64,000 bases of DNA from Tistrella mobilis (GTDB lineage: Bacteria > Pseudomonadota > Alphaproteobacteria > Tistrellales > Tistrellaceae), in the NCBI RefSeq assembly GCF_041468085.1, contig NZ_CP121014.1, positions 248,001-312,000 of the forward strand, written 5' to 3'. Position 1 is the first letter of the stretch; each line of letters opens with the position of its first letter. The position numbers and the translations under genes were made by a program. The notes beneath the pieces were generated by a model. The model saw only the letters and a list, made by a program, of their open reading frames with translations. It made no database searches and was not told where the DNA came from. Shown in pieces: positions 22,908 to 31,746 of this stretch.

Positions 22908-23161
22908 CCGGCCCCGGACCGTTGGCGCCGGTTCCGTGCCGGGGACACGTATCATCTTTACGCGAAAGTAAACAACGTTGGAACGACTTTGCCAGGCGAC
23001 GCCTGAAGCCATGGCCCCAAGAGTTCGTTCAGAAAATATGTTTGAAAATCCCCACGTTTTCCTGCAGAGTGCTTCGAAGACAAGATCGGCCGGGTGCCGG
23101 AACCGCCCTGTGCAAATTGAGCCGCCTTGTGCCACTGAACCCGTTATGTGCTGGTGTGGAT
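22908..23161. other. Intergenic region upstream of the lasso-peptide operon
   Basis: About 250 bp without a convincing gene. It is less GC-rich than its neighbours around 22950-23060 and must carry the promoter of the lasso operon, but I see no clear -35/-10 pair or operator palindrome. Confidence 0.5.
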
Positions 23162-23317
23162 ATGAACGAGCCTGAAACGACTGCCTCTCCCGCCCCGGCG
23201 CGGAATGTGAACCTGCTGCCCTGGGCTGCGCCGGTGCTGGGCGTCTACAACGCCGCGCCTCTGACCCAGGGGGGCGGCGATCAGTCGTCAGACGGCTTTA
23301 TCAACACCCATTCCTGA
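23162..23317 (+). CDS. Lasso peptide precursor
   Basis: A 51-residue peptide gene just upstream of the cyclase. The leader contains WAAPVL, matching the Y/WxxPxL element that PqqD-like RRE proteins bind, and has Thr at the penultimate leader position (APLTQ), the usual cleavage signature. The predicted core is GGGDQSSDGFINTHS: Gly1 and Asp8 would close an 8-residue macrolactam ring, leaving a 7-residue tail GFINTHS. Cleavage one residue later (7-residue ring) is less likely because Thr would then be at -3. The core has Ser6, Ser7, Thr13, Ser15 and two Asp residues as possible modification sites for the sulfotransferase- and oxygenase-like enzymes in the operon. The stop is 12 nt before the cyclase start. 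Confidence 0.82.
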   Translation: MNEPETTASPAPARNVNLLPWAAPVLGVYNAAPLTQGGGDQSSDGFINTHS

Positions 23318-23329
23318 CCTGCCACCAGG

Positions 23330-25270
23330 ATGTTGCAGGGCGGCGCCGGGTTTCTGGCCGGCACCGGCGGGGCGGTGCGCGATCTGGCCCGCCGCTGCCC
23401 GTCGGAATTCCGCGTCGATCGGGTGCATCAGAGCGACGGCGGTATCGTCGTCGGGCTGGGCCGCGATAACCCGGCGGGCCGGCTGCGGCGCCCCGCACCC
23501 CGGCCGATCGCGCCGGGCCTGTCCGGCGCCGTGACGCTGGTCAACGGAGAGATCTACAATCTCGCCGATCTGGCCCGAGAGCTGGCGCTGGACCGGACGA
23601 TGCCGCTGACGCCGGTGCGGCTGGTCGACGCCCTTCTGGACCGGTGGGGCGTCGACGGGCTTGCCCGGCTGGATGGCGACTACACCCTGGTGCGCTGGTC
23701 GCCCGCCAATCACGCGCTGCTGCTCGCCGCCTGCCCGATGGGGCGGGACAGCCTGTGCCATGCCGCCATGCCCGACGGCATCGTTGCGGCCAGCCGGCCC
23801 AGCTGGCTGCTGGCCGTGCCGGAGGTCGATCCGGAACCGGATCCCGATGTGCTTGTCTACCCGCTGGTCAAAATGGAAAGCCGGATCGGCGACCGGACCC
23901 CCTGGCGTCATATCCGGCGCCTGCAACCGGGCTGGTATCTGGAATGGCAGGACGGATCCATGCGGACGGCGCCCTTCTGGTCGCCGGTGCCGCGGCGCAG
24001 ATTGCGCCTGCGCCGGGATGCGGAATATGTGGAGGCCGCGCGCGAACATCTGGACCGCGCGGTCGCCGCGCGCTGCCCCGGTGGCACGCCTGTTCTGTGC
24101 CTGCTGTCGGCGGGGCTGGATTCGCCCGGCATCGCCGCGACCGCGTCCCGCCGCCATGACGCGCCCGTCCATACCCTCACCATCCGCGCCGATCCCGATG
24201 TTCCCCAGCTGCCCCCGGATGCCGGTCATTTCGCCGACGAGTGGGAGCGTTTGCAGCCTTTCCTGGCCCGCTATCCCGGGTTGAGGCCACATCTGGTCGA
24301 TGCCTGGCAACCCGACCTGTCGATGGAATATGCCGGCGGGCCGCTGCAGAGCCGCGACTGGCCGGTGAAGAGGCCTGATCAACTGTCCTGGATGCTGATG
24401 CCCATGGCGCGCATTGTGCGCGAACAGGGCATCGGCGTGGTCCTGAGCGGCGATGCGGGCAATGTCACGCTCAGCTATACCGGCGGCCGGGTGGCCGCCG
24501 ATCAGTTGCTGCGCGGACGGGCGCTGGCGGCCTGGCGCAACCTCGTTCCCTATCGCCCGGAATTGCGGGGCCGGCCACGGCTGTTCTGGGGCCCCCGGGC
24601 GCTTTGGGGCCAGGCGGTGGCGCCCCTGGCCGGCCCCGGCCTTCGCCGCCTGACGCGGCGGTTGCGCGGCGGCCAGGACTATTGGTGGCAGGAATGGAGC
24701 AGCATCCGGCCCGAGGTCGCGGAACGGTTGCAGCTGACGGAACACGACCAGCCATCCATGCGCACGGGCTCGCCCGATCTCGACAACCATATCCGGCTGC
24801 TGGAACATTTCCGCCAGAAAAACGCCCAATACGCCCATCTCTTTCAAGGGACGGCCTGGTCCTGGCGCGATCCGTATTGCGATCTGGGCCTGGTTGAGTT
24901 CTGCCTGTCGCTGCCGCGCGACCAGTTCCGCCGCAACGGGGTGCCGCGCCTGCTGGCCCGCCGGACCCTGGCCGATCGCGTGCCGCAACCCATTCTGGAT
25001 GAACGTCGGATCGGCCTGCAGCATGCCGACTGGTTCGGCTGGATGGGGCGGCGGCGCGACTGGATGGCGGCAGAGATCGACCGGATCGAACAATCGCCCC
25101 TGGCCTGCTCCCTTCTGGATACGCAGCACATGCGGGCCATTCTGGACGCCTGGCCGGCCACCCCTGAAGAGGCCGGGCGCTTCCCCACCTCTCACCGTCT
25201 GCGCAAGGGGCTGGGCGAGGCGCTGCGGGTGGGGCAGTTCATCCTGATGCAGGAAGGCCGCAATGGCTGA
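23330..25270 (+). CDS. Lasso cyclase (asparagine synthase-like C protein)
   Basis: Predicted to activate the core Asp side chain as an AMP ester and close the macrolactam on Gly1. The 646-residue protein has an N-terminal glutaminase-like domain (VNGEIYNLADLA near 71-82, LARLDGDYTLVRW near 111-123) without the catalytic N-terminal Cys, as is common in lasso cyclases. The ATP-pyrophosphatase domain begins at SAGLDS (260-265), and VLSGDAGNVTL near 374 belongs to the same fold. The ATG at 23330 follows the precursor closely. It overlaps the next gene by 8 nt. A primary-metabolism asparagine synthetase is unlikely given the missing Cys and the neighbours. Confidence 0.88.
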   Translation: MLQGGAGFLAGTGGAVRDLARRCPSEFRVDRVHQSDGGIVVGLGRDNPAGRLRRPAPRPIAPGLSGAVTLVNGEIYNLADLARELALDRTMPLTPVRLVDALLDRWGVDGLARLDGDYTLVRWSPANHALLLAACPMGRDSLCHAAMPDGIVAASRPSWLLAVPEVDPEPDPDVLVYPLVKMESRIGDRTPWRHIRRLQPGWYLEWQDGSMRTAPFWSPVPRRRLRLRRDAEYVEAAREHLDRAVAARCPGGTPVLCLLSAGLDSPGIAATASRRHDAPVHTLTIRADPDVPQLPPDAGHFADEWERLQPFLARYPGLRPHLVDAWQPDLSMEYAGGPLQSRDWPVKRPDQLSWMLMPMARIVREQGIGVVLSGDAGNVTLSYTGGRVAADQLLRGRALAAWRNLVPYRPELRGRPRLFWGPRALWGQAVAPLAGPGLRRLTRRLRGGQDYWWQEWSSIRPEVAERLQLTEHDQPSMRTGSPDLDNHIRLLEHFRQKNAQYAHLFQGTAWSWRDPYCDLGLVEFCLSLPRDQFRRNGVPRLLARRTLADRVPQPILDERRIGLQHADWFGWMGRRRDWMAAEIDRIEQSPLACSLLDTQHMRAILDAWPATPEEAGRFPTSHRLRKGLGEALRVGQFILMQEGRNG

Positions 25271-26297
25271 AGGTCTCGCTGAAACCGGCCCGATCTGGAT
25301 GCCCGTCCGCGCCGTGCCTTCGGCCGGCGGCGGCAGCTTCCTGCTGCGGCCGATTGCGGCCGATGCCCCGGTCGAGGAGGTGCTGTTCGGCCTGCATGGC
25401 AGTCCGGCCGCCGATCATCCGGCCGCGGCGGGGCTGCGCTCTGCGCTGATCCGCGACCATGCGCCGACGGCGCCGGTGTTGCCGCCGCTGCTTGCGATCT
25501 GGCATCTGACGCGCTGCGGCTCGACGCTCACCGCCCGCATGCTGTCCTGCATCGATGCCCTGCAGGTGATGGACGAGCCGGGGGCCGTGGTCGATATCTG
25601 CGGCGCCTTCTGGGGGCTGGTGCCCATCGCCGACCGGCTGGCGGCGCTGGATGCGGCGCTGCGGGCGCTGGGCCAGCGGGTCAGGCCCGGGGCACGGCAC
25701 CTGGTTGTGAAGCAGTCGCTGCGCAGCTGGCGGGATCAGGATCTGTTCGCGCAGCTCCACCCCGATATGCATCGGGTGCTGATCATCCGCGATCCGCTGG
25801 AAATCCTGGTGTCGAACCTGACAGGGCCGCCGGGCTGGTTGAAGTTGCGCGATGCGGTTTGGTCGCCGCTGCTCTCGGGGGTGGCGCTCGCCCGGCAGCG
25901 GGAGTTGAGCGATGCCGAATTCATCGCCCGCTGCCTGGGCCGCGCCTTCGCCGCCATGGCGGCGATGGTGGAGGCGGACCCGGCGGGCTGGCTGATCCTG
26001 GATTATGCGGAACTGCCGGATGCGGTGATCACCCGCCTGCTGCCGCGCCTGGGCATCACGCCCACACCGGCCGAGGCGGCGGCGATGGCCGATGCGACCC
26101 GGCTTCAGGCCTGGGGCCGCCGGGGCCGCCGGCCCTTCAGCGACGATCGGGCGCAGAAGCAGGCGGCCGCCACCCCGGAGATGCACGACCTCTGCGACCG
26201 TTTCCTGCGCGCGCCCTGGCAGCGGCTGGCGGCCGTCGCCCATGGCGGTTCCGGAATGTGCAACCTCGATCAGGCAGCAAGGCAGTCCCCGTCATGA
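25263..26297 (+). CDS. Sulfotransferase-like P-loop protein in the lasso cluster
   Basis: A 344-residue protein with the 5'-phosphosulfate-binding loop pattern of sulfotransferases, HLTRCGSTLTARML at 81-94 (compare PRSGTT), and a 3'-phosphate-binding-like IIRDPLEILVSNL at 174-186. It would transfer a sulfo group from PAPS to a hydroxyl on the precursor or mature peptide, but a different nucleotide-dependent role cannot be excluded. Translational overlap with the cyclase (8 nt) and with the PqqD gene (4 nt) ties it to the same pathway. Confidence 0.75.
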   Translation: MAEGLAETGPIWMPVRAVPSAGGGSFLLRPIAADAPVEEVLFGLHGSPAADHPAAAGLRSALIRDHAPTAPVLPPLLAIWHLTRCGSTLTARMLSCIDALQVMDEPGAVVDICGAFWGLVPIADRLAALDAALRALGQRVRPGARHLVVKQSLRSWRDQDLFAQLHPDMHRVLIIRDPLEILVSNLTGPPGWLKLRDAVWSPLLSGVALARQRELSDAEFIARCLGRAFAAMAAMVEADPAGWLILDYAELPDAVITRLLPRLGITPTPAEAAAMADATRLQAWGRRGRRPFSDDRAQKQAAATPEMHDLCDRFLRAPWQRLAAVAHGGSGMCNLDQAARQSPS

Positions 26298-26578
26298 TCT
26301 TCCCCCCTGAGACCGTCTTTATCCGTTCTCCCGAGCCGCTCACCACCGAGATCGATGGCGAGGTGGTGATGATGGATCTGTCGAGCAGCGCCTATTTCAA
26401 CCTGGACAGCATCGGCACCGCCATCTGGGGGCAGCTGGAGACCCCGACGCGGTTCCAGGATCTGTGCGGTGCGCTGCATGCCCGCTATGACGCGCCGCTC
26501 GACATCATCCGGCGCGATGTCGCGGCGCTGCTCTCTGACATGCTGACCCACGGGCTGGTGCGGAAGGAGGTGCCGTGA
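26294..26578 (+). CDS. PqqD-family RiPP recognition protein (lasso B1)
   Basis: A 94-residue winged-helix protein of the PqqD/RRE type. It presents the precursor leader to the processing enzymes. EIDGEVVMMDLSSSAYFNLD and the closing LLSDMLTHGLVRKEVP are typical. It starts in an ATGA overlap with the sulfotransferase-like gene and ends in a GTGA overlap with the next. In usual lasso clusters B1 works with a separate B2 transglutaminase-fold protease; no such gene is found here. Confidence 0.88.
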   Translation: MIFPPETVFIRSPEPLTTEIDGEVVMMDLSSSAYFNLDSIGTAIWGQLETPTRFQDLCGALHARYDAPLDIIRRDVAALLSDMLTHGLVRKEVP

Positions 26579-27561
26579 GAGAGGCTTCCGCTCTTCAGGC
26601 CGCCGATCCGGATCTGGCCTCCATGGCGCGCCAGGCGGCTTTTCTGCTTCTGCAGGGCCGGGCCGATGCGGCCGCGGCGCTCTGCGGCCGCATCCAGGCG
26701 ATCGACCCCAATCTCGAAACCTTCGGGGCCTTCACCGATCTGCTGACCTGGGCCCGCCCGCGCGAGCGGCTCTATCCCCTGGTCCGGGCGCTGGTCGATG
26801 CGGGCTTTGCCAATCCGCGCAGCTTCGACCTGCTGGCCGCCACGGCGATCTGGGCCGGCAATATCCCAGCCGCCCGAGAGCTGACCAGCCCCGAGCGGTT
26901 CCTGTCGATCACCCGCCTGCACGGCCCCGACGATCCCGATCTGGCGCCGCTGGTGGCCGAGCTGGCGAGCGGGCTGGAGCATTACGATCGGCCCGGCGAC
27001 CGCTCCATCCGCATGGGATCGCGCCGCAACCATCTGGAACGGTCGGACAGCCCGGTGCTGCGCCGCCTGCTCGACCGGCTATGGCGGGTGGCCTGCGCTT
27101 ACGTCGACCGTCTGCCGGCGGATCCGGACAATCCTTTCCTGCGCGCCCGGCCGGCCGGGCTTGTTCTCAAGGCCTGGAGTGTGGTGTCGGGGGCGAAGAC
27201 CCATCATCTGCCCCATCTGCATGCAACCAGCTGGGTGAACGGCGTCTATTACGCCGAGGTGCCGCCGGTGGTGGCGGATGCGCCGGTTGTGGCGGACGTG
27301 GCAGGCCGGCCCGGCTGGCTGCGCGTCGGCCCGGCGGCCGGCCGCGGCTTTGCGGCCGCCGGTGACGGGGACGGGCCGGAGGGTGGGGCCGACCGGGTCG
27401 GCTGGGCTGAGCGCTGGATCCGCCCCGAGCCCGGCCTCGTGGTGCTGATGCCCAGCCATTTCACCCATGAAACCGTGCCGCTCGGCTGCGATCAGCGGCG
27501 GATCTGCGTCGCGTTCGAACTTCATCCGGCTGCGGCCGATCAGGCCGGCCACCGGCCCTGA
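26575..27561 (+). CDS. Putative 2-oxoglutarate/Fe(II) oxygenase in the lasso cluster
   Basis: A 328-residue protein with a helical N-terminal ~180 residues and a C-terminal double-stranded beta-helix resembling the 2OG-FeII_Oxy_5 family: HLPHLHATSWVNGVYYAEVP at 211-230, then MPSHFTHET with His298, and Arg309 as possible 2-oxoglutarate ligand. His214 and His216 are candidate iron ligands, so the facial triad may be atypical. It starts at GTG overlapping the PqqD stop. A likely role is hydroxylation of the lasso peptide, for example on Asp; this is inference. It is not the missing B2 protease by any visible motif. Confidence 0.68.
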   Translation: MREASALQAADPDLASMARQAAFLLLQGRADAAAALCGRIQAIDPNLETFGAFTDLLTWARPRERLYPLVRALVDAGFANPRSFDLLAATAIWAGNIPAARELTSPERFLSITRLHGPDDPDLAPLVAELASGLEHYDRPGDRSIRMGSRRNHLERSDSPVLRRLLDRLWRVACAYVDRLPADPDNPFLRARPAGLVLKAWSVVSGAKTHHLPHLHATSWVNGVYYAEVPPVVADAPVVADVAGRPGWLRVGPAAGRGFAAAGDGDGPEGGADRVGWAERWIRPEPGLVVLMPSHFTHETVPLGCDQRRICVAFELHPAAADQAGHRP

Positions 27562-27600: not shown

Positions 27601-28392
27601 TCATCCCCGCTGCCGCGCCGCGAAATACTGCGCCGGCGTGCTGCCCATGGCCTTTTTGAACATGGCGATGAAGGCATTGACCGACTCATAGCCAAGTTCT
27701 GCGGCCACGTTCTGCACCGCCATGCCCCCGGCCAGCCCGCGCAGGGCGACGATCAGGTGCAGCTGCTGCCGCCAGCGGCCGAAGGTCAGGCCGGTTTCCC
27801 GGATCATCAGCCGGGCGAGCGAGCGTTCGCTCATGGCCACGCGCTTTGCCCAGTCGCGGAGCGTGCTGCGGTCGGTGGGATCGACGGTCAGGGCGTCTGC
27901 GATCGCGCGGATCTTGGGGTGGCCCGAGATCGGCAGGTTGAAACGCTCCCGCGGCATCACGGCCAGCTCGTCGAGCGTGACGCGCGCCAGCCGGGCGGCA
28001 TGGCTGTCGGCCGGATAATCGGCCGGTTCCCGCGCCAGCCGGTCGACCATTTCCCGCACCAGCGGCGAGAGCGACAGGGTGCAGCAGCTGTCGGGCAGCA
28101 GGGCGGCCCCCGGTTCCACGAACAGATAGCTGAGGCGGGCATTCGCGGTCGCCCGGGCGCTGTGGGGCATCCCGCCCGGAATCCACACCCCGCAATCGGG
28201 CGGGACGATCCAGATGTCATGATCCGCCGTGCAGGTCACGGCCCCGCGCCGGGCAAGGATCAGCTGCCCCTTGCGATGAAGATGGACGGGAACCTCTTCC
28301 GCATGGTCTGCGAAATCGAGCTGGCTTGCGACGGCCGGCCGATCGGTGAGATCGGGGTCGAAGGCGGATACGGCGGATCGGGCAGGGGGCAC
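27601..28392 (-). CDS. AraC-family transcriptional regulator with cupin domain
   Basis: A 263-residue regulator. The N-terminal cupin-type sensing domain includes HLHRKGQLILARRGAV and IPGGMPHS; the C-terminal AraC domain has two helix-turn-helix units (LRDWAKRVAMSERSLARL and VQNVAAELGYESVNAFIAMF) ending in STPAQYF. Starts at GTG 28392. Divergent from the FUSC/DUF1656/HlyD efflux operon by about 77 bp, the arrangement expected for its regulator, and convergent with the lasso operon. Confidence 0.9.
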   Translation of the reverse strand: MPPARSAVSAFDPDLTDRPAVASQLDFADHAEEVPVHLHRKGQLILARRGAVTCTADHDIWIVPPDCGVWIPGGMPHSARATANARLSYLFVEPGAALLPDSCCTLSLSPLVREMVDRLAREPADYPADSHAARLARVTLDELAVMPRERFNLPISGHPKIRAIADALTVDPTDRSTLRDWAKRVAMSERSLARLMIRETGLTFGRWRQQLHLIVALRGLAGGMAVQNVAAELGYESVNAFIAMFKKAMGSTPAQYFAARQRG

Positions 28393-28469: not shown

Positions 28470-30641
28470 ATGAGCACCGATCATCGCCCCCAGCCCGTCT
28501 TCGCCGCAGCCGGCCGTCGCCTCCGGCGCTTCTGCCATGCGCCCGGGACGAGGGCGGATGCAGAGGCGCTGCTGTTTTCGGCGAAAAGCTTCGCCGCGGC
28601 GATGCTGGCCTGGTACATCGCGGCGTCCATCGGGCTTCCGCGGCCTTATTGGGCGGTTCTGACCGTCTATATCGTTTCGCAGACCTCTGCGGGCGCATCG
28701 GCAGGGCGGGGCGTCTATCGCTTCGTCGGAACGCTGGTCGGTGCGGCGGCGACCGTGGTGATCATTCCGGCCTTCGTGAACGATCCGATCCTGTGCAGCA
28801 TCGTGCTCGCCGGCTGGATCGGCCTGTGCCTCGCCCTCTCGGCGCTCGATCGCACGCCCCGCGCCTATGCCTTCGTTCTGGCCGGCTATACCGCCAGCCT
28901 GATCGGCTTTCCGGGCGTGCTCGATCCGGGCCAGATCTTCACCACCGCCCTGGTGCGGGTTCAGGAGATTTCCATCGGGATCCTCTGCGCCGTTCTGGTC
29001 CATCGCCTTGTTCTGCCGAAGCATGTGACCGATCAATTCATCGGCCGGCTTGCGGTCACCCTTCAGGATGCCCGGCGCCTGGCGGGCGATGCCCTGGGCG
29101 GTGCCGGGGACCGGCGGATGCAGGACGATCGCCGGCAGCTCGCGGCCGATCTTCTCGGCCTGCAGGGCCTGGGGACGCAGCTGCCCTATGATCCGGCCCC
29201 CCGGCCGCCGCATGCCGCGCTGCGCCGGATGATCCACGACCGGCTTGCCCGCCTGCTGCCGCTGACGATGGAGGTGGAGGATCGGATCGAGGCCCTCGGC
29301 CTCGTTGAGAAGATCGAGGCCCTCGGCCTCGTTGAGAAGATCGAGGCCCTCGGCCTCGTTGAGAAGATCGAGGCCCTCGGGAATGATCGTCCGGAAGACG
29401 GGATCACGCGGCTGGTGGCCGATCTCCGCAGCTGGATCGCCACCGGTGATGTGGCGGCACGGGAAGAGGCGGCCGCCGGGCTGATCGATCGGGCGCGGTC
29501 GCTCGGGGCAAGGCTGGCCGCCGGGGCTGTAACGCCGCATGACCGGCTTGCCGCCAATCTCGCCGGTCATCTGGCGGACATGATCGGCCTGCTCCACGAT
29601 TGCGACCGGCTCTGGCGGGAGGTTTCGGGGGGCGCAGGGCCGCGCGCCGGCGCGGCGTCGCCACGGCCCGCCAGGGGCTATGTCTATCACCGCGACCCAT
29701 GGATGGCCGTGCGGGCGGGGGCCGGCGCCGCCATCGGCGTCACGATCGGCTGCCTGTTCTGGATCTGGTCGGGCTGGCCGGATGGCGGGATGGCGGTCTC
29801 GATCCTGGGCGTCTGCTGCGCCCTGTTCGGCAATCTCGATGCGCCGGCGCCGCCGCTGCGGACATATATGCGCGGCTCGGTCTACGGGGTCGTGATCAGC
29901 CTGGTCTATGGCTTCGTCATCCTGCCCCGGGTGCCCGATTTCACCCTTCTGGTCGTGGTCCTCGCCCCGGTCTTCCTGTTCGCGGGCTCCCTTCAGGCGC
30001 GCCCGCCGACCACCTTCCTGGCGCTGGGGATCACGCTCACGGTCCCGATTCTGGGCGGGCTGGATACCGGCTATGGCGGCGACTTCGCCGCGGCTCTCAA
30101 CAATGTGGTCGCGCTTTTTGCGGCAACCGGCTTTGCAGTGGTGAGCATGACGATCTTTCAGACCGTACCGGTCCATGCGGCGATCGACCGGCTGCTCAGG
30201 CTCAGCCGCCGGGACGTGACGCGGCGTATCCTGGGGGCCGCCCCCGACGAGGCGTACTGGACCAACCTCATGATCGACCGGACGGCGCTTCTGCTGCCAA
30301 GGCTCAGGCTGTCGGGCGCACCGCGCCCCGATATTCTCGACGACACGCTGCATCATCTGCGCATCGGTCATGCCGCCGGGCTGCTGCGCCACGAAATCTG
30401 CCGGGTGGAGGGGCATATCGGCCGCGATGTCCGCGGGCTGCTCTCCGCGATCGCCCTGGATGTCGGGGCCCGGCGGCCGGATCCCGCCCGGGTGGAGGGC
30501 CTGGAGGCGCGCATCGGGGCGTTGACCGGGCTGATCGCCGGCAGTTCGCTTCACAACCGCGCCCGTCTGCTCGACCTCGTCATCGATCTCGGCTTCGCGC
30601 TCGGGCTCAAGGGCGCGACCGGCGGGGAGCCCGGCGCATGA
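28470..30641 (+). CDS. FUSC-family inner-membrane efflux protein (AaeB-like)
   Basis: Large inner-membrane component of a tripartite-type exporter for aromatic acids or similar compounds. The 723-residue protein has two hydrophobic blocks, near residues 35-185 and 410-560, around a cytoplasmic middle, the FUSC layout. The ATG at 28470 is chosen; a GTG at 28455 in frame is possible. The stop overlaps the next start (ATGA). The central region holds a 9-residue tandem repeat (see separate entry). Its neighbours DUF1656 and HlyD match the AaeXAB arrangement. Confidence 0.88.
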   Translation: MSTDHRPQPVFAAAGRRLRRFCHAPGTRADAEALLFSAKSFAAAMLAWYIAASIGLPRPYWAVLTVYIVSQTSAGASAGRGVYRFVGTLVGAAATVVIIPAFVNDPILCSIVLAGWIGLCLALSALDRTPRAYAFVLAGYTASLIGFPGVLDPGQIFTTALVRVQEISIGILCAVLVHRLVLPKHVTDQFIGRLAVTLQDARRLAGDALGGAGDRRMQDDRRQLAADLLGLQGLGTQLPYDPAPRPPHAALRRMIHDRLARLLPLTMEVEDRIEALGLVEKIEALGLVEKIEALGLVEKIEALGNDRPEDGITRLVADLRSWIATGDVAAREEAAAGLIDRARSLGARLAAGAVTPHDRLAANLAGHLADMIGLLHDCDRLWREVSGGAGPRAGAASPRPARGYVYHRDPWMAVRAGAGAAIGVTIGCLFWIWSGWPDGGMAVSILGVCCALFGNLDAPAPPLRTYMRGSVYGVVISLVYGFVILPRVPDFTLLVVVLAPVFLFAGSLQARPPTTFLALGITLTVPILGGLDTGYGGDFAAALNNVVALFAATGFAVVSMTIFQTVPVHAAIDRLLRLSRRDVTRRILGAAPDEAYWTNLMIDRTALLLPRLRLSGAPRPDILDDTLHHLRIGHAAGLLRHEICRVEGHIGRDVRGLLSAIALDVGARRPDPARVEGLEARIGALTGLIAGSSLHNRARLLDLVIDLGFALGLKGATGGEPGA
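29285..29380 (+). repeat. In-frame 27-bp tandem repeat inside the FUSC gene
   Basis: Three identical 27-bp units (29285-29311, 29312-29338, 29339-29365) and a partial fourth encode repeated IEALGLVEK. The nonapeptide is amphipathic and extends a helical, coiled-coil-like cytoplasmic segment. Exact identity of the units suggests recent slippage and probable length variation among strains. Confidence 0.95.
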
Positions 30642-30853
30642 TCGTCGATGCCGATCTGGGGGGCGTGTTCGTCCCCGGCCTGCTGGTGCTGGCGCTGCTC
30701 GCGCTGGCCGCCACCCTGCTGGTGATCCGGATCCTGGTCTCGACGGGGCTCAGCCGCCGTTTCGCCGGCCGGCCGTTCGTCGAGCTGGCGGTCTTCGCCA
30801 TCATCTACGGTCTGCTCGTGCAGTACCTGCCATCGACCGGATTGCTTCAATGA
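30638..30853 (+). CDS. DUF1656 small membrane protein (AaeX-like)
   Basis: A 71-residue protein with two membrane helices (VPGLLVLALLALAATLLVI and LAVFAIIYGLLVQYL). Its position between the FUSC and HlyD genes, with 4-nt ATGA overlaps on both sides, is typical of the DUF1656 partner in this efflux family. Exact role unknown. Confidence 0.88.
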   Translation: MIVDADLGGVFVPGLLVLALLALAATLLVIRILVSTGLSRRFAGRPFVELAVFAIIYGLLVQYLPSTGLLQ

Positions 30854-31746
30854 CCCAGATCTTTTCCCGTCTCGGCCGCTATGCGCTCACCCTCTGCCTG
30901 GTGGTGCCGGCCGGCCTTGTCGCCCTGCATGTCTGGGACCGATACCAGCAGGTGCCCTGGACCCGCGACGGCCGGGTCAGCGCCGATGTCGTCCGGCTCG
31001 CCCCGGAGGTATCCGGCACCATCGCCACCGTATCGGTCGGCGACAATGCCTATGTTCATCGGGGCGACGTGCTCTATGTCGTCGATCCCGAACGCTATCG
31101 GCTGGCGGTGATGTCGGCCGAAGCCGATGTCGAGGCCCGGCGTCAGGACATGCTCGTCCGCCGGGCGGCAGCCGCGCGCCGCCGGCAGCTCCGCGAGGCG
31201 ATCTCGCGTGAAGATCTCCAGCAGGTGGAGGCGGCGGCCGCGGTGGCCGATGCCGACTGGCGGGCCGCCCGGGCGCGGCTCGACATTGCGCGGCTCGATC
31301 TGGCGCGCACGACCGTGCGTTCTCCGGTCGACGGCTATGTCAGCAACCTCCGGCTCCGGCCCGGCGATTACGCCATTGCGGGGGAAAGCCGCATCTCGAT
31401 CGTCGATGCGGCCAGTTTCCGGGTCACCGGCTATTTCGAAGAGACGAAGCTCCGGCACATCCACCCGGGGCGGCCGGCGCAGATCCGCCTGATGGGGGTG
31501 GGCCAGCCGTTGTCGGGCCATGTCGACAGCATCGGCCGCGGCATCGAGAACGACAACGATGCCCCAGGCCAGCTGGGGCTGCCCGATGTGGCGGCAACCT
31601 TTGCCTGGGTGCGCCTGGCCCGGCGCATCCCCGTCCGCATCCGGATCGACGCAGTGCCGCCCGGGGTCGAACTGGTCGCCGGCATGACGGCCGCGGTCGA
31701 GATCATCCCCGCCGGGGAGGCGCCCGGCCGGCCGAGTCTTTTTTAA
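30850..31746 (+). CDS. HlyD-family periplasmic adaptor of the efflux system (AaeA/EmrA-like)
   Basis: A 298-residue membrane-fusion protein: N-terminal anchor (ALTLCLVVPAGLVALHVW), a split lipoyl domain (VRLAPEVSGTIATVSVGDNAYVH, then TTVRSPVDGYVSNL), a helical hairpin and a beta-barrel (FRVTGYFEETKLRHI). It links the FUSC protein to the outer membrane; no outer-membrane channel gene is nearby. The gene ends in GAGTCTTTTTTA. Confidence 0.9.
   Translation: MTQIFSRLGRYALTLCLVVPAGLVALHVWDRYQQVPWTRDGRVSADVVRLAPEVSGTIATVSVGDNAYVHRGDVLYVVDPERYRLAVMSAEADVEARRQDMLVRRAAAARRRQLREAISREDLQQVEAAAAVADADWRAARARLDIARLDLARTTVRSPVDGYVSNLRLRPGDYAIAGESRISIVDAASFRVTGYFEETKLRHIHPGRPAQIRLMGVGQPLSGHVDSIGRGIENDNDAPGQLGLPDVAATFAWVRLARRIPVRIRIDAVPPGVELVAGMTAAVEIIPAGEAPGRPSLF

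Follow-up and report, generated by a model that had tools for sequence, protein, structure and literature searches.

The 64,000-nucleotide stretch of Tistrella mobilis DNA analysed here (contig NZ_CP121014.1, positions 248,001 to 312,000; called the window below) contains a five-gene operon of lasso-peptide type that carries no gene for the leader peptidase B2. The genes, all on the forward strand, lie where the initial annotation of this DNA had placed them. The first encodes a precursor of 51 amino acids (23162..23317), composed of the leader MNEPETTASPAPARNVNLLPWAAPVLGVYNAAPLTQ with Thr at position -2 and a predicted 15-residue core, GGGDQSSDGFINTHS (23270..23314), in which the ring is expected between G1 and D8. 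It is followed by a lasso cyclase C of the asparagine-synthetase fold (23330..25270, 646 amino acids; PF00733, 6.4e-26), which has a SAGLDS motif and no Cys after the start Met and also matches GATase_7 of Pfam, and by a sulfotransferase of 344 amino acids (25263..26297). The fourth product is the PqqD-fold protein B1 (26294..26578, 94 amino acids; PF05402, 2.9e-16), the recognition element (RRE) for a ribosomally synthesized and post-translationally modified peptide (RiPP). Its nearest solved chain is TbiB1 (5v1u, 5.8e-9), and it scored 57.5 bits against the NCBIfam lasso PqqD model, which has a cut-off of 80. The last gene encodes a 2-oxoglutarate (2OG)-Fe(II) oxygenase of 328 amino acids with a C-terminal PF13759 domain (26575..27561; 1.8e-14, 54.4 bits with a curated cut-off of 27). 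PADLOC gave no match for the cyclase, the sulfotransferase or the oxygenase. All gene ends had been described as overlapping; the last three junctions indeed overlap by 8, 4 and 4 nt, but the precursor and cyclase genes are 12 nt apart.

The lack of B2 in the operon, noted in the initial annotation, was borne out. A profile of three Tistrella B2 sequences had no match in the window, and PF13471 matched no protein of the operon, which also rejects a B2 hidden in another operon protein. The operon is confirmed as a lasso-type gene set without its own B2. All three Tistrella genomes reached in searches at the family and order levels (the window genome, T. mobilis KA081020-065 and G002) carry it, and the five-gene order that had been proposed as a search target was found there as well as in G081, a genome from another family, where one HPr-kinase-like gene is inserted on the opposite strand before B1 (G081:C15, L169). 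In contrast to the canonical lasso gene cluster, all four copies lack B2 within the cluster. The window cyclase is 92% identical to a cyclase on plasmid pTM1 of T. mobilis KA081020-065; a contig search with it returned 12 loci, of which only this one was close while the others had 24-32% identity. The G081 oxygenase is 66% identical to that of the window. Pairwise comparison of the Tistrella orthologues gave ratios of nonsynonymous to synonymous substitution rates (dN/dS) of 0.19-0.22 for the cyclase, 0.16-0.27 for the sulfotransferase and 0.13-0.16 for the oxygenase, and of 0.48 for the precursor (one pair).

The precursor itself is conserved together with these enzymes. The orthologous cores are GGGDQSSDGFINTHS in the window, GISNVSDDGFISTHS in T. 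mobilis KA081020-065, GGGNNSSDGIINTHS in G002 and GTGNQSTDGFVNTHS in G081, and in all four the residues G1, S6, D8, G9, T13, H14 and S15 are identical, whereas positions 2-5, 7 and 10-12 vary. The leaders have LPW.AP.LG.Y in common, and the Thr at -2 predicted in the initial annotation is kept in every copy. In the window precursor the leader ends in TQ before the G of the core, and the acidic D8 falls within core positions 7-9. An in-frame GTG at 23156, 6 nt upstream, was picked by the gene caller, and the ATG at 23162 is common to the Tistrella copies; we take 23162 as the start because G002 lacks a start codon at the GTG position. The absence of a conserved precursor from related clusters had been named as grounds for abandoning the assignment, and the precursor is kept in all four operons of this type that were found. 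At the sequence level, its conservation in three Tistrella genomes and in G081 confirms that it is not a chance open reading frame. No gene is listed at the T. mobilis precursor site (NC_017957.2 48330-48741, L180) in the PLSDB gene table, which by its own description is incomplete.

To describe such precursors more generally we used a pattern (W/Y..P, T/A at -2, D/E at core 7-9) that was written after the precursors had been viewed. It matched 23 of 1703 small open reading frames in 14 Tistrella lasso loci and 11 of 1441 in 14 control loci, with 3 of these 11 resembling real precursors. A match was located less than 3 kb from the cyclase in 13 of the 14 Tistrella loci, L049 being the exception. 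Among 14 precursors selected with the pattern beside Tistrella cyclases, W..P occurred in all and Thr at the pattern's -2 position in ten.

The whole-genome search for a B2 homologue that the initial annotation had called for revealed one orphan. Each of the three Tistrella genomes yielded a single PF13471 match over the cut-off (E-value limit 10). In the window genome the match is at C1:736888-737229, within a gene at about 736.8-737.5 kb on G000:C1 and some 460 kb from the operon; in T. mobilis KA081020-065 two plasmids are involved, pTM2 with the B2 gene (TMO_RS23655) and pTM1 with the operon, and the G002 copy of B2 lies on contig C29. The orphan scored 71.7 bits with the NCBIfam lasso_biosyn_B2 model (cut-off 33) and is annotated as B2 in the T. 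mobilis gene table, where its neighbours are 2-isopropylmalate synthase, a sensor kinase and RepA, with no other lasso gene named in the 30-kb stretch covered. On pTM2 there was no PqqD match and just one partial cyclase match, of 20 bits. All 12 B2 sequences that were aligned keep Cys104 and His140; 8 of the 12 are encoded less than 10 kb from a cyclase. Searches of the PDB with the orphan sequence and with the B2 profile gave no match. The dN/dS of the three Tistrella orthologues was 0.09-0.12 (pairwise), indicating strong purifying selection; the orphan B2 is therefore maintained. Since it is intact and strongly selected, and no Tistrella lasso locus that was read has a B2 of its own, it must serve some substrate.

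The initial annotation had left two options, a B2 supplied elsewhere or leader removal by another protein of the operon. The first is favoured by the one intact and conserved orphan B2 per Tistrella genome. The second is disfavoured, as Pfam gave no protease match for any of the proteins encoded in the operon. B2 is thus most likely supplied from elsewhere in the genome, and we consider it probable that the operon depends on a leader peptidase provided in trans by the single orphan B2, which would also serve the other lasso operons of the genome. In the proposed sequence of events, B1 would bind the leader at its WxxPxL part and act with the orphan B2 (G000:C1), which would cut after TQ, and the cyclase would join G1 to D8. 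The sulfotransferase and the oxygenase would tailor the peptide, most likely at a conserved Ser or Thr (S6, T13 or the C-terminal S15) and at a neighbouring residue, probably while the precursor is still linear. A requirement of the C96 lasso protease for the RRE, and a model of RRE, protease and leader that explains the invariant Thr at -2, are described in a review (PMC10885120).

The other lasso loci of Tistrella fit the same layout. We counted 14 cyclase loci with a candidate precursor, five in the window genome (the window operon, L046, L047, L049 and L051), five in T. mobilis KA081020-065 and four in G002, and none has a B2. Left out of the 14 were L070, a T. mobilis locus with a 499-residue cyclase-like frame, precursor and B1, and L048/L058/L063; these likewise lack B2, as follows from each Tistrella genome having one. 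The organization varies: L046 consists of precursor and cyclase only, L047 of regulator, cyclase, precursor and sulfotransferase, and PqqD with a candidate precursor but without cyclase is found at L052, L054 (a 31-residue candidate) and L050/L068/L069, whose precursor turned up in the pattern control set.

A tree of 43 cyclases, made by a quick method with only Shimodaira-Hasegawa-like approximate likelihood ratio (SH-aLRT) values and containing two long rows, required seven changes for the Tistrella rows, all forced by starred branches; by our reading the Tistrella rows occupy about six separate places. For four of the six, a cyclase from another genus that has B2 in its vicinity is among the closest relatives (L109, two of L128, L178). 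The clade with the window cyclase (8 rows, 99, starred) is without B2 throughout, and L169 of G081 is nested in the largest Tistrella group.

The orphan position of B2 was compared with the situation in the class. B2 was detected over the cut-off at E <=1e-5 in at least 29 of 289 alphaproteobacterial genomes when the best 15 candidates per genome were scored, with all candidates scored in seven selected genomes. Around 33 B2s from outside Tistrella we read 31 regions; 25 have an asparagine-synthetase homologue (18 of them scoring at least 200 bits and 7 scoring 50-77 bits) and six do not (L107 and L132, at contig ends, and L118, L121, L134 and L136), which makes an orphan B2 the exception. The corresponding cyclase search matched 162 of the 289 genomes at E 1e-40, many of the matches probably being other asparagine synthetases; because of these mixed matches and the scoring of only the best four candidates per genome it gives no count of lasso cyclases. 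A layout like that of Tistrella occurs in G033, from another genus, with two B2-less lasso loci (L172, L173) and one orphan B2 at C2:630033. G275 has one B2, in the cyclase-free region L134, and one B2-less cyclase locus (L175), and both B2-near and B2-less cyclases are present in G081 and G138.

Several observations weigh against supply in trans by the single orphan B2. The cyclase scored just 93 bits with the NCBIfam lasso cyclase model NF033535 (cut-off 525) and higher, 104 bits, as an asparagine synthase. The B1 dN/dS of 0.43-0.66, based on few changes, indicates weak constraint, and 4 of the 14 pattern-selected precursors lack Thr at -2 by the pattern. L046 and L047 are also without B1, so that B1 would need to be shared as well. 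G081 has three B2s, and its operon copy therefore points to no single partner. Finally, G005 encodes two lasso-type cyclases of 609 and 332 bits (L170, L171) but no B2 over the cut-off, although it is rated 100% complete; its best PF13471 E-value was 0.138. In some settings B2 may thus be unnecessary or escape recognition. A B1-like frame next to L170 is short, and its match is weak.

The G005 case lends some weight to an alternative in which the leader is cut by another protease, be it a general host enzyme or an activity not recognised as such, while the orphan B2 has nothing to do with the operon. Titles among the references of PMC10885120, on a bifunctional peptidase/ATP-binding cassette (ABC) transporter and on pseudomycoidin synthesis without leader and leader peptidase, point the same way. 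We regard this as unlikely, however, considering the lack of Pfam protease matches in the operon and the intact, strongly selected orphan in three genomes whose lasso loci, as read, have no B2 of their own. A second alternative is that the lasso label is wrong and the asparagine-synthetase homologue makes another amide, or a branched-cyclic, unthreaded peptide of a different RiPP class. The low NCBIfam score agrees with this, as does a tail of only seven residues in which, besides His, the sole aromatic plug candidate is F10, replaced by I10 in G002. Other Tistrella proteins also score low with NF033535, at 122-283 bits for the five other cyclases or cyclase-like proteins scanned, with none at the cut-off. 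This alternative nevertheless appears quite improbable, given the lasso-type character of precursor, C and B1 alike, the Thr at -2 and acidic residue 8 present in all four orthologues, and the place of the window cyclase among cyclases that other genera encode close to B2. In a third alternative the operon has lost B2, is decaying and yields no product. This would agree with the absence of B2 from four of four copies and with the relatively fast evolution of B1, but it is very improbable: open frames, dN/dS values below 1 for C, sulfotransferase and oxygenase (0.13-0.27), and gene order and core kept in another family argue against a decayed operon.

The sulfotransferase, a putative tailoring enzyme, was examined by sequence and structure comparison. 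Its PF13469 match, at 23 bits, is below the Pfam cut-off of 27, and a sequence-profile search of the PDB gave no match. A structural model (mean predicted local distance difference test score, pLDDT, of 70.5; residues 1-66 below 50) was closest to tyrosylprotein sulfotransferases, with a Z-score of 16.7 and a root-mean-square deviation of 3.1 over 221 residues, and Foldseek also ranked these enzymes first, with template-modelling scores (TM-scores) of about 0.4-0.5. HxxRCGSTL, E105, K150 and RxPxEILVS are invariant in an alignment of eight sulfotransferase sequences. Judged by its modelled fold and the loop motifs, the third gene product is predicted to belong to the 3'-phosphoadenosine-5'-phosphosulfate (PAPS) sulfotransferase superfamily. 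R84, E105 and K150 appear to resemble the catalytic residues of TPST2. Since the core peptide contains no Tyr, the likely sulfation target is one of its Ser or Thr residues, and S6, T13 and S15 are invariant.

By analogy with known lasso tailoring, S15 would be the first choice as modification site. According to a review (PMC8498205), lasso kinases act on a precursor that is still linear, at its C-terminal Ser, and the canucin hydroxylase CanE likewise modifies the C-terminal residue of its linear precursor. CanE, like the last operon product, is an iron/2OG enzyme, a likeness of enzyme class. The operon is a candidate source of a sulfated lasso peptide; by title, no such compound was evident in the literature searched, which was without most subscription papers.

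A sulfotransferase gene in a lasso cluster is in itself already known: PMC8498205 also reports a putative one in lasso clusters of Firmicutes, which unlike the Tistrella operon are described with B2 and D genes. Split-B clusters with separate B1 and B2, such as the paeninodin type with its C-terminal Ser kinase, share with the window operon a precursor ending in Ser, a cyclase, B1 and a tailoring enzyme; here B2 and the transporter are absent, and a sulfotransferase and a 2OG oxygenase replace the kinase. Within the class, scoring of the five best candidates per genome with a sulfotransferase profile gave matches in at least 11 of 385 alphaproteobacterial genomes, and among the matches listed only Tistrella and G081 exceeded 500 bits. 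In Azospirillum sp. TSH100 a relative annotated as beta-hydroxylase (34% identical over 71%) adjoins B1 near a cyclase, and B2 is encoded about 5 kb from that cyclase.

No dedicated transporter is found within the operon, again as the initial annotation had stated. FUSC/HlyD efflux pump genes (28470-31746) begin about 0.9 kb past its end, but their role as dedicated exporter is unsupported; the T. mobilis KA081020-065 operon is adjoined by a DUF892 gene where the window has these genes and an AraC-type regulator. The regulator (27601..28392, reverse strand; HTH_18) is not clearly an operon member; homologues of it adjoin the related lasso locus L047/L056/L062.

Further RiPP-like loci were observed in these genomes. 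A conserved lasso-cyclase-like gene for 653 amino acids recurs in the three Tistrella genomes (L048, L058 and L063), with no convincing precursor adjoining it, and L048 has the top lasso-cyclase score of six Tistrella proteins scanned (283 bits). L052, L072 and L074, as well as L054 and L077, are RiPP-like: candidate precursors accompany PqqD and HPr-kinase-like genes, and a cyclase is absent. L052 further carries genes for CmcI and TylF methyltransferases and for a glycosyltransferase of GT41 type. A phage-tail-collar cassette of three proteins (PF07484 for the one scanned) and a GNAT protein occurs in 10 of 81 loci scanned (L050, L068 and L069 in Tistrella; L108, L115, L123, L129, L135, L172 and L178). 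Seven of the ten have a lasso cyclase; in Tistrella the cassette accompanies B1 and a candidate precursor without cyclase. A second lasso type, with a core approximating NNGLVAPGD..FSPSP.GS, is common to L057 (T. mobilis), L128 (G268) and L168 (G081), and within the regions read B2 adjoins it in G268 only.

Beyond the trans supply of B2 to the window operon, we tentatively propose, at somewhat less than an even chance, that Tistrella harbors a distributed lasso factory. Precursor-cyclase, precursor-B1 and A-C-B1 units with varied tailoring genes would be scattered over the replicons and all rely on one B2, with B1 and cyclases possibly shared too. Operons without B2 could be acquired because a promiscuous B2 would already be resident, and searches based on adjacency to B2 would miss them. 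A leader protease encoded away from its cluster has a parallel in the unclustered lanthipeptide proteases (PMC8960859), although those serve lanthipeptides and are not lasso-specific B2s. An example of a shared or unclustered lasso B2 was not found in the literature searched, which consisted of partial listings without most subscription papers; for lasso peptides and Tistrella, the same literature includes PMC11002830, which places Tistrella in its pearlin section. If the proposed supply in trans is correct, the lasso protease would be an enzyme shared in trans and not a fixed component of the cluster, and the lack of B2 would be no reason to dismiss a lasso gene set as incomplete. The handling of several RRE-leader pairs by one peptidase would become testable, and a B2 with natural promiscuity would make a useful tool.

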